Of a DNA stretch of 39,404 nucleotides, positions 24,265 through 27,785 are shown piece after piece; the first letter of the stretch is position 1; each line of letters starts with the position of its first letter. Where the stretch lies: assembly GCA_016184115.1 (NCBI GenBank), contig JACPDH010000046.1, positions 1 to 39,404 of the forward strand. The letters run 5' to 3'. The translations under genes and the position numbers were made by a program. The notes beneath the pieces are model-generated. The model searched no databases. It saw only the letters and a program-made list of their open reading frames with translations, and had not been told where the DNA came from. Source of the DNA: Acidobacteriota bacterium. GTDB lineage: Bacteria; Acidobacteriota; Thermoanaerobaculia; Gp7-AA8.

Positions 24265-25329
24265 ATGAACAACGAAATCGTCAAACTCCTCGGTGACAAC
24301 GGCAAGAATCTCCTCGAATTCAACACTCCGAAAATCGCAAAGGAGTCGCTCCACCTTCCAGGCCCCGACTTCATCGATCGCGTCTGGGCGGCGTCCGACC
24401 GCACTCCGCGCGTGCTCGCAAACCTTCATCGCCTCTTCAACACGGGCCGTCTCGCCGGAACCGGCTACGTCTCGATTCTTCCCGTCGATCAGGGAATCGA
24501 GCACTCGGGCGGCGCGTCGTTCGCGAAGAACCCGATCTATTTCGACGGCGAGAACATCGTGAAGCTGGCACTCGAAGGGGGCTGCAATGCCGTCGCCTCG
24601 ACCTACGGCGTCCTCGGGTCGGTTGCGCGCAAATATGCGCACAAGATCCCGTTCATCGTGAAAATCAATCACAACGAGCTGCTCACCTTCCCCAACAAGG
24701 CCGACCAGATCATGTTCGGCACCGTTAGGCAGGCGTACGACATGGGTGCGGCTGCAGTCGGCGCAACGATCTACTTCGGATCCGACGGCGCCTCGCGCCA
24801 GATCATCGAGGTCGCGGAGGCGTTCGCCGAGGCCCACGAGTACGGCATGGCGACGATCCTCTGGTGCTACCTAAGAAACAACGCATTCAAGAAGGACAAG
24901 GACTATCACCTCGCCGCCGACCTCACCGGCCAGGCCAATCACCTCGGGGTGACGATCCAGGCCGACATCATCAAGCAGAAGCTCCCTGAGAATAACAACG
25001 GCTACGGCGCCCTCAACACGGGCGAGTCGAGCTACGGCAAGATCGACAAGCGAATCTACAGCGACCTCTGCTCCGATCATCCCATTGACCTGACTCGTTA
25101 CCAGGTCGCGAACTGCTACATGGGACGCGCGGGCCTCATCAACTCGGGCGGCGCGTCGGGAAGCAACGACTTCGCTGAAGCAGCGATGACGGCGGTCGTC
25201 AACAAACGCGCCGGCGGCATGGGGCTGATCTCCGGCCGCAAGGCATTCCAACGCCCGATGGCTGAAGGAGCCAAACTCCTCAACCTCATCCAGGACGTCT
25301 ACCTCGACAACGACATCACGGTCGCGTAA
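24265..25329 (+). CDS. fbaB: Class I fructose-bisphosphate aldolase, FbaB/DhnA type
   Basis: A 354-residue Schiff-base aldolase closely resembling E. coli FbaB (about 350 aa): [53 protein letters not shown] and the phosphate-binding [11 protein letters not shown]. It interconverts fructose 1,6-bisphosphate with dihydroxyacetone phosphate and glyceraldehyde 3-phosphate, without a metal; the active-site Lys falls in or near the NNAFKKDK region by comparison. It is monocistronic, divergent from the amidase and convergent with glgX, from which it is separated by a palindromic element. A GTTAGGC heptamer forces a rare AGG Arg codon. Confidence 0.95.
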
Positions 25330-25378: not shown

Positions 25379-25661
25379 CGCTTAGTACTGCTCCCCGGAA
25401 ATAGGTGGCCAGTCGCTGGTAGCGCTTGCCCGCGAGATCGAGGAGCGAGGAGGAGGCGATGCGGGGCCATCGCTGACGACGAGCGACGATGAGATCGCGG
25501 GGCAACCGCTACCAGCCCGGAGGGTTGTGGCGCGACGGCCTCGCTCGCATTGTCGCTCCTCCTCGACGATGTCCCAGCATCGCCTCGTCGTCGCTTCGCG
25601 CGATCGAGGCCGTCGCGCGCACAACGACTGGCCACGTATTCCCGGGGAGCAGTACTTAGCG
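25379..25661. repeat. 283-bp palindromic element whose right end overlaps the glgX stop
   Basis: Terminal inverted repeats of about 37 bp (25379-25415 / 25625-25661; core AGTACTGCTCCCCGG, about 3 mismatches). Between them are two independent nested inverted repeats: about 25415-25440 with 25500-25525, and 25535-25554 with 25605-25625. The whole could fold as a three-way junction. The right terminus CGCTAAGTACT contains the TAA stop of glgX. No ORF. Fills the gap between fbaB and glgX. Confidence 0.8.
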
Positions 25662-27785
25662 TCTGCCGCTGCGAAGCACGACGGTGGAGAACGCGCGCAC
25701 TTCGATCCGTCCGCCGTCGACCCTTTCCTCGCGCCCGGCGTCGACGATGTCGCGGGGGCTCGGCGCGGCCGTGTCGATCACCCGCAGCCACACCGCGCCG
25801 GAAGGGGGAGCCGGAAGCTCGAACGCAAGATCCTCGACCCAGGCATTCATCGCGACGTAGATGTCATCGTCCCCACCTGCCACATGCTCCCCCGCCAAGT
25901 GCATCGCGAGTGATCGGGAACCTGGCCCGAAGTCGGGAGCGCCGGCCGCCACACCGTGCCAGCTGACGTCGGTCCGGATTGAGCGCGCCGGCCCGCGTCC
26001 CGTGAGGAACTCGGCGCGACGGAGAATCGGGTGTGCCTTGCGGAATGCGATCAGCAGTTTCGTGAATCGATGAAGATCGGCATTCTCCTCGAGCAGCCGC
26101 CAGTCGATCCAGCCGAGCTCGTTGTCGTGACAGTAGGCGTTGTTGTTGCCCCGTTGCGTCCTGCCCATCTCGTCGCCCGCGAGAAGCATCGGCGTCCCCT
26201 GCGACAGGAAGAGAATCGCGAGGAAATTCCGCACCTGTTGCCGCCGGAGGGCGACGACCCGAGCGTCCGTCGTCGGTCCTTCGGCGCCGCAGTTCCAGCT
26301 GAAGTTCTCTCCGGCCCCGTCGCGATTCTCCTCGCCGTTCGCTTCGTTGTGCTTGCTGTTGTAGGAGACGAGATCGGCGAGCGTGAACCCATCGTGGCAC
26401 GTCACGAAGTTGATCGAGTGGTACGGCTTCCGTCCCGACGACTGGTAGAGATCGCTGCTGCCGGCGAGACGGGAGGCGAGCGTTGGCACGACGCCTCCGT
26501 CGCCGCGCAAGAAGCGCCTAACGTCATCGCGGAATGGTCCGTTCCACTCGCACCATCGCCCCCACGCTGGAAACGTTCCAACCTGGTAGAGACCGGTCGC
26601 GTCCCACGCCTCGGCGATGAGGGTCAGGTCTGCCAGTACTGGGTCGTCGGCAATCGTCTCGATCAGCGGCGGATCGGCGAGAACGCTGCCGTCGCGTCCC
26701 CGCGAGAGCACGGATGCGAGGTCGAATCGGAAGCCGTCAACGCCCATCTCGCCGCCCCAGTAGCGGAGGGCGTCGAGCACGAGCTCGCGCACCACAGGGT
26801 GGTTGCAGTTGAGCGTGTTGCCACAACCGGAGTAGTCGAGATACTTGCCGGTGCGCTTGTCCGCCATGTAGTAGATCGCGTTGTCGATCCCTCGAAACGA
26901 AAAGGTCCGGTCGGTCGGCGAGCCGCTCCCCTCAGCCGTGTGATTGAAGACGACGTCGAGGATCACTTCAATTCCGGCACGGTGCAGCTCGCGCACGAGG
27001 AACTTGAACTCGTCGACCTGCTCGCCTCTCTGCCCGTCGGACGCGAAGCGCGCGTTCGGCGCGAAGAAGCCGATCGGGTTGTAGCCCCAGAAGTTCGTGA
27101 GGTGCTGGCGGATCTCGGGATCCATCTGCGGGTTGACGCTGTCGTCGAACTCGTAGACCGGAAGCAGCTCGACGGTCGTAACGCCAAGATCCTTCAGGTA
27201 GTCGATCTTCTCCACGAGTCCGCGATAGGTTCCCGGATGACGAACCTCCGAGCTCGGGTGACGCGTGAAACCGCGAACGTGCATCTCGTAGATGATCTTC
27301 TCGGTTTCGGGTAGCAGCGGCTGATGCACGTACTTCCAGTCGAACGAGCTCGAGGCGTGAACGCCCCGCTTTTCGGCCTGCCCATCGACCCAGACTGTGC
27401 TGATCGCGCGCGCGTATGGGTCGACGAGCACGAGTGTCGCGTCATAGCGATGGAGCCCCTCGCGTGCCACGGGTCGACGGTCGAAGCGCCAGCCGTATTC
27501 GAACCCGCGCTCGAGACCATCGATGCAGACGTGCCAGACGTCGCCCGTGCGGAAGTATGGGGTGTCGAGTGGAAGCTCGAGAAACGGCTCCGCGTCACCG
27601 ATCGCGAAGAGAACGAGTGAGCCTTCCGTCGCGTTACGCGACACGATCGAGAAGTTGAGCCCTTCGCTCGTCCGCGTCACCCCGAGTGGAAGCGGTTTCC
27701 CCGGCATCACCGAGAAGTCGGCCCTCGTGAGCGCCACGAGCCTCGCGCGCGGGTCGCCTCCGGGCGGACGGACAGTTCCCGACAT
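25656..27785 (-). CDS. glgX: Glycogen debranching enzyme (isoamylase type, GH13_11)
   Basis: A 709-residue enzyme that hydrolyses alpha-1,6 branch points of glycogen or limit dextrins. The N-terminal CBM48-like domain (about 28-125) precedes a GH13 barrel with DVVFNHT (277-283), GFRFDLAS with nucleophile Asp355, EAWD with acid/base Glu392, and VTCHDG with Asp465. The C-terminal beta-sandwich ends with VVLRSGRR. Length and motifs match GlgX/TreX. Start ATG 27785 follows a TACACT box by 8 nt with no Shine-Dalgarno sequence. The stop lies inside the palindromic element's end. No glgA/B/C/P is linked here. A GTTAGGC heptamer forces an AGG codon. Confidence 0.95.
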   Translation of the reverse strand: MSGTVRPPGGDPRARLVALTRADFSVMPGKPLPLGVTRTSEGLNFSIVSRNATEGSLVLFAIGDAEPFLELPLDTPYFRTGDVWHVCIDGLERGFEYGWRFDRRPVAREGLHRYDATLVLVDPYARAISTVWVDGQAEKRGVHASSSFDWKYVHQPLLPETEKIIYEMHVRGFTRHPSSEVRHPGTYRGLVEKIDYLKDLGVTTVELLPVYEFDDSVNPQMDPEIRQHLTNFWGYNPIGFFAPNARFASDGQRGEQVDEFKFLVRELHRAGIEVILDVVFNHTAEGSGSPTDRTFSFRGIDNAIYYMADKRTGKYLDYSGCGNTLNCNHPVVRELVLDALRYWGGEMGVDGFRFDLASVLSRGRDGSVLADPPLIETIADDPVLADLTLIAEAWDATGLYQVGTFPAWGRWCEWNGPFRDDVRRFLRGDGGVVPTLASRLAGSSDLYQSSGRKPYHSINFVTCHDGFTLADLVSYNSKHNEANGEENRDGAGENFSWNCGAEGPTTDARVVALRRQQVRNFLAILFLSQGTPMLLAGDEMGRTQRGNNNAYCHDNELGWIDWRLLEENADLHRFTKLLIAFRKAHPILRRAEFLTGRGPARSIRTDVSWHGVAAGAPDFGPGSRSLAMHLAGEHVAGGDDDIYVAMNAWVEDLAFELPAPPSGAVWLRVIDTAAPSPRDIVDAGREERVDGGRIEVRAFSTVVLRSGRR

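Follow-up and report, generated by a model that had tools for sequence, protein, structure and literature searches.

A multi-hairpin MITE at the end of an acidobacterial glgX-like gene has a core common to several phyla and belongs to a superfamily that has probably exchanged its terminal repeats

The window, that is, the whole 39,404-nucleotide stretch of acidobacterial DNA analysed here, carries a 269-bp multi-hairpin inverted repeat (25386–25654) with a direct CTTAG repeat on either flank (Table 1). It is located between two convergent genes, one for a DeoC/LacD-type aldolase and one glgX-like. The 283-base span singled out in the preliminary description (25379–25661) comprises the element, the 5-bp CTTAG and two extra bases per side. 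The element contains no ORF as long as 100 aa.

Table 1 Features of the element and its neighbours in the window
Feature	Position	Strand	Basis or remark
DeoC/LacD-type aldolase gene	24265..25329	+	Pfam DeoC; convergent neighbour, outside element
Left target duplication, CTTAG	25381..25385	.	Sequence; identical to 25655–25659
Left terminal inverted repeat/outer helix, type A (TACTGCTCCCCGGAAATA...)	25386..25414	+	Complementary arms
Hairpin 1, core conserved, stem variable but with compensatory changes	25415..25515	+	Alignment, consensus fold
Hairpin 1 core, GAGGAGCGAGGAGGAGGCGATG-loop-CATCG..GACGACGAGCGACG	25440..25488	+	Conserved across phyla
Mini hairpin, CCC-GGA-GGG, separating hairpins 1 and 2	25516..25524	+	Alignment, consensus fold
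Hairpin 2	25525..25625	+	Inverted repeat, alignment, consensus fold
Hairpin 2 core, read as GCGACGACGAGGCGATG-loop-CATCGTCGAGGAGGAGCGACAA	25551..25599	-	Sequence, alignment
Right terminal inverted repeat/outer helix	25626..25654	-	Complementary arms
Right target duplication, CTTAG	25655..25659	.	Contains glgX stop
glgX-like isoamylase/glycogen debranching enzyme gene	25656..27785	-	Pfam CBM_48, Alpha-amylase, Isoamylase_C; neighbour, outside element

The TAA of glgX (minus strand, 25656–25658) falls within the right CTTAG, outside the element proper, so the stop derives from the target site and not from the element. The preliminary description had the element supplying this codon, which is right for the span it marked, whose right terminus contains the TAA, but not for the element itself. 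Its further suggestion, that glgX may once have ended differently, was dropped: GlgX ends with VVLRSGRR before the stop, the usual end position judged by relatives (VVLRRVD and VVLVSR), and this agreement, together with a stop lying in the duplicated target, indicates that glgX was left intact by the insertion. Open frames of at least 90 codons are closed within CT(N)AG at 40 of 138 element sides (29%), compared with 22% among 859 other CTAG sites of these loci; the gene-end position of the element is largely a property of its target site.

The palindromic architecture first noticed at the locus was borne out. The outer arms (25379–25425 and 25615–25661) show 85% complementarity across 47 nt, and between them lie two separate inverted repeats (25415–25431 with 25500–25516, and 25530–25548 with 25600–25618). 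The 283 bases, folded as single-stranded DNA, reach −103.5 kcal/mol against −64.5 ± 3.6 for shuffled sequences (z −10.9, 0 of 200 as good). Folded on its own, the window copy has a rod as its energy minimum, with partial pairing between the two inner repeats; the consensus fold from alignment consists of two separate hairpins and a tiny third one (CCC-GGA-GGG, 25516–25524). This consensus lies closer to a four-way junction than to the three-way junction initially proposed. Comparing DNA energies across 11 copies, the two-hairpin form is the free optimum in four (L141, L159, L232 and L260) and is roughly 2 to 18 kcal/mol worse than the optimum in the other seven, the window copy included. Since the two-hairpin form is often suboptimal, energy alone is no argument for the junction; covariation is.

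Consensus folding recovers the same plan in 17 Sphingomonas elements and in 26 mainly acidobacterial ones, the latter hand-picked for differing ends from 62 rows thinned from 79 full-length elements. The shared plan runs from an outer helix (about 29 pairs) through hairpin 1 and the mini hairpin (CCC-NNN-GGG or CCGCNNNGCGG) to hairpin 2, in which the two loop sides are ordered the other way round from those of hairpin 1. Paired core columns of hairpin 1 are 0.97–0.98 identical in both alignments, the outer helix 55–72%. On paper, the loop sides of hairpin 1, (GGA)n and (GAC)n, could form repeating G-C and tandem G-A pairs. A Shine-Dalgarno-like AGGAGG stands a few bases before an ATG in the hairpin 1 core (25440–25464) and is kept in acidobacterial and Sphingomonas cores; the length of the frame after this ATG is not conserved.

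Double-sided changes occur in 55 of 95 consensus pairs of the Sphingomonas alignment and in 67 of 90 of the mainly acidobacterial set, with 97% and 92% of the stems, respectively, in Watson–Crick pairing. In the three variable stems combined, G-T mismatches balance A-C ones in Sphingomonas (12 versus 11 of 1083 cells) and in the mainly acidobacterial set (45 versus 41 of 1808), as they do in the outer arms of extracted elements (62 versus 71). The balance, with no excess of G-T, speaks for DNA rather than RNA. It bears on the reading that transposition has spread a structured non-coding RNA, or an RNA regulatory element, which is conserved for its function as RNA. Such a reading would make sense of the strong covariation, the conserved internal loops and the AGGAGG before the hairpin-1 ATG, but we consider it very unlikely, as RNA selection should favour G-U in stems where G-T and A-C are equally rare. 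Moreover, elements from ten loci gave no Rfam match (E ≤ 1), the surroundings of the window copy gave no sigma-70-like promoter or terminator match, and the frame opened by the core ATG spans just 2–5 codons in 12 of 22 host-genome copies, with five in the window copy. Membership of a structured-RNA class and coding content were both rejected on the Rfam result, the lack of G-U-tolerant covariation and the short frames.

How the stems change depends on divergence. Among close copies (at least 93% arm identity) 68 changes are one-sided and three are matched, and among diverged copies (60–75% arm identity) 938 are matched and 539 one-sided; one-sided changes thus dominate early and matched ones with divergence, which argues that a mismatch first appears on one arm and is compensated afterwards. 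The pattern is equally consistent with selection on the fold and with palindrome correction by template switching. Taking the stems together, we infer selection on structure at the level of DNA.

The expectation of a non-autonomous, multicopy element with matching termini was confirmed in the host genome. A BLAST-type search located the core at no fewer than 26 places (L001–L020 and L022–L027), and besides the window copy returned three copies at 97–99% identity and many others at 75–87%; the element is therefore multicopy, not a single-copy sequence conserved at this locus in distant relatives. The 75–87% matches are confined to the inner part (about bases 35–248 of 283). Read with their flanks, copies matching only there are elements of equal size with other ends. 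The host genome holds five end families, A to E, and only A-type copies have the ends of the window copy; in the others the sequence next to CTAG is TGGCCTGTA.. (B), TGTTCTGTCCGTGAATT.. (C), TGTAGTGTTTCGTTAATCC.. (D) or GGAACCTCTGAACAAGTT... (E). Copies of types A and B1 share 17% identity over the outer 28+28 bases and 84% over the rest, in a comparison where some averages are lowered by errors of a few bases in the called ends of L008, L019 and L023.

The same ends also occur around no core. Three core-less type A palindromes of 53–65 bp are present in the host genome (C91:426-483, C4:45760-45812 and C37:24841-24905), and core-less type C palindromes occupy about seven places at a uniform 56–58 bp (contigs C54, C83, C78, C90, C14, C98 and C114). 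The type C palindromes may move by themselves and, if these copies did so, their dispersal makes the core dispensable for dispersal. Of 21 listed host-genome places within one mismatch of TACTGCTCCCCGG, 15 mark the end of an element or of a core-less copy; the remaining six (L038, L039 and L041–L044) are lone matches, whose surroundings were inspected by eye. The transposase with matching termini (core AGTACTGCTCCCCGG) anticipated in the preliminary description was not found in the host genome at these 21 places.

Beyond the host, 12 of 60 relatives, its own genome counted, match the window copy. In the GTDB collection the exact hairpin-1 pattern matches at least 96 stretches, mostly from Acidobacteriota, and the matches listed include Gemmatimonadota, a Planctomycetaceae MAG and the isolates Sphingomonas lenta and S. 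rubra. At least 95 of 250 genomes of the genus Sphingomonas match a Sphingomonas copy, a lower bound as two candidates were scored per genome. Loci with a hairpin-1 pattern and paired ends on both sides yielded 109 extracted elements, 61 of them from 96 loci (L131–L226), in a set that loses copies cut by contig ends and in which some ends are off by a few bases. Typical elements are 264–272 bp long, and 79 of the 109 measure 259–276 bp. Neither a plasmid collection (queried with a Sphingomonas copy and the window copy) nor a phage collection (Sphingomonas copy) returned a match, and no viral contig matched two core patterns.

The core tree, built from 59 rows, requires at least 14 changes of end type against a least possible 11, and starred branches force changes for types B (3), G (3), C (2) and N (2). 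The idea that A-type ends belong to two lineages of cores was abandoned, as a single clade for A-type cores is not rejected (p-AU 0.33). Copies of type B diverge past the first nine or so end bases, and part of the end-type change may be end divergence rather than exchange. End types are mostly clustered on the tree, which would suit ordinary MITEs that arose repeatedly from different IS elements and whose cores are alike by convergence or gene conversion; a mainly IS-derived origin of MITEs is also the view given in the available text of a published account (PMC10969869). We regard repeated origin as highly improbable. The core is common to phyla at the sequence level, convergence over some 200 aligned columns is not credible, and gene conversion may explain likeness within genomes but not between distant ones.

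Both sides carry CTAG in 26 of the 109 extracted elements and CTNAG in 20; within the latter the middle base is equal in ten and complementary in two (chance 1 in 4, binomial p 0.014). CT(N)AG is found on one side only in 51 elements and on neither side in 12, some of these through miscalled ends.

Core-carrying genomes or their relatives also contain IS1182 and IS5 elements that are flanked by CTAG and have similar ends. A Sphingomonas IS of the IS5 family (about 840 bp; PF13340 plus PF01609, NCBIfam IS5_3) has the ends CTAG followed by GGTCAGGACCCATT, and in these 14 bp plus CTAG are identical to elements in other genomes of Sphingomonas; the two-ORF forms of the IS5 family we take to be IS427-like. 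An IS5-type IS of Planctomycetaceae begins with CTAG-GCTCTGT, as do the elements of that genome, and then diverges. The ends of an IS1182 IS from one acidobacterial MAG (CTAG, then AGATCCATCCGGAAACCCC) resemble end type N (AGGTCCGGCCGGAAACCCC) of others, and an IS5/IS1182-type IS with CTAG followed by CAGGCTGTTGAAGAAG resembles end types J and K. Like the element, IS5-family and IS1182-family members combine CTAG target duplication with similar terminal repeats; they differ in having a transposase, and the core was not seen in them. Two further CTAG-flanked IS with perfect ends were noted, an IS1634-family one with CGGGAGTTTACTGAGA (L328, G317), where the element ends differ, and one with CTAGCCCGGATTATGCATAA (L303/L315, G314), in a genome that carries an element with other ends.

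No IS and element with identical ends were found within one genome, no IS match was found for type A ends, and no IS element with the core inside was seen. Pairing like ends 0.5–5 kb apart, using 22 end strings on the fetched loci, gave three pairs, each with one end at five mismatches. The host genome has no match to DUF772, DUF4096 or DDE_3 transposases and one DDE_Tnp_1 IS with other ends, and the relative G011 has no match to DUF772, DUF4096 or DDE_Tnp_1; absence from these two is weak evidence because both are drafts with breaks at repeats. As a separate observation, G011 is a 99% complete draft with about 20 near-identical copies, many at contig ends (L113–L122 and L383–L386), a recent burst without a visible transposase.

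An alternative is that the core itself is recognized by a dedicated protein, for example a binder of structured single-stranded or cruciform DNA. The ends would then need only complementarity and a CTAG start, and their likeness to IS ends would be secondary or due to chance. A core that is near-invariant across phyla between wholly different ends, a near-constant element length and the high copy number in genomes where no IS4/IS5/IS1182-type transposase is visible all favour such recognition. Set against this, the ends form discrete families with counterparts among IS ends (identical over 14 bp in Sphingomonas), dispersed core-less copies bear those same ends, and no candidate gene emerged among the four transposase families searched. 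We consider recognition of the core unlikely.

Taken with the distribution of cores and ends, the IS likenesses point to a different reading as the probable one: a cross-phylum MITE superfamily with one structured core and exchanged terminal repeats, moved in trans by several DDE transposases. In this superfamily, a DDE transposase from CTAG-targeting IS5/IS1182 (IS4-like DDE) elements would act in trans and recognize the terminal repeats only, inserting the element at CT(N)AG sites that often overlap stop codons. The superfamily would repeatedly swap its terminal repeats, and hence its transposase, while keeping the internal core. Replacement of terminal repeats around a persistent core is visible as a pattern; our favoured guess for its mechanism is that the end of a neighbouring IS is copied into both arms by template switching. 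The arms would stay complementary because a single change is later matched, through either template-switch correction or selection for folded DNA. The conserved hairpin cores presumably serve the element in some way: a host factor might bind them, for example, or their mismatches might interrupt a long palindrome enough to keep it tolerable. It is possible, if somewhat doubtful, that the core is a mobile module in several phyla that changes ends and transposase, with selection at the DNA level for its fold and mismatched loops, probably as a binding site for a conserved host protein that aids persistence or transposition.

MITEs are usually viewed as by-products of one IS. If the trans-mobilized superfamily is real, a gene-less parasite could outlive its transposases by switching among them. 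The elements would provide numerous naturally compensated DNA hairpins for studies of palindrome correction and of cruciform-binding proteins, and in the genomes of Acidobacteriota and Sphingomonas the family would account for many long palindromes that lack annotation.

By the features tested the element is a MITE: it is 269 bp long (MITEs, 50–500 bp), lacks a transposase gene, and has terminal inverted repeats, a target duplication and dispersed copies; its IS partner and mobilization in trans are putative. Correia/NEMIS, RUP and QMITE1, as far as the available parts of their descriptions go, are likewise short and gene-less, with IS-related terminal inverted repeats, target duplication and presumed mobilization in trans, and often fold as long hairpins (PMC10969869, PMC2229807, PMC5896051). 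Stem-loop folds are described there for bacterial MITEs in general (PMC10969869, PMC2229807). The families depicted in those parts have one long stem-loop (PMC10969869, PMC2229807, PMC5896051), whereas the present element has two large hairpins plus a mini hairpin and a core that recurs across phyla with unrelated terminal repeats. The CIR repeats of Caulobacter, found in alphaproteobacteria, have two hairpin arms joined by a linker, and are placed apart from other repeats in the available portion of the source; by description, the element is set apart from them by their length of about 110 bp, their GANTC motif and the lack of a described outer helix (PMC2229807).

The preliminary description likened the element to palindrome-associated transposable elements (PATEs). 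Those of Haloquadratum walsbyi are palindromic, lack a transposase gene and have short core-deleted versions, but the available text assigns them to IS605-type elements and describes them as without terminal inverted repeats or target duplication (PMC3119063). The element has both, which rules out this class. REP and REPIN sequences with RAYT transposases are dispersed extragenic palindromes too; REPs are given, in the part of the source available, as 20–40 bp with GTAG or CGTC tags (PMC3733652), and this class was ruled out by size and ends (269 bp, CT(N)AG duplications and no GTAG/CGTC end tag). Full-text searches of an open-access collection brought up no paper in which we recognized a description of one core common to phyla with different ends.

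Several variants depart from the standard architecture. Elements of about 160–192 bp retain hairpin 1 with an incomplete hairpin 2 (L085, L090, L096, L143, L153, L156, L178 and L220), and two shorter variants in G011 (L111 and L112) have hairpin 2 only. One locus also holds a c-di-GMP-I-GGC riboswitch match above the gathering score (L133:1307-1393), unrelated to the element. In MAG nzgw75, palindromic inserts of about 22–24 bp, GCTGGGCCGCTGCGCGGACCCAG-like, lie in hairpin 1 (L148, L185, L186 and L202), and some copies have an insert beside the mini hairpin as well, a palindrome nested in a palindromic element.
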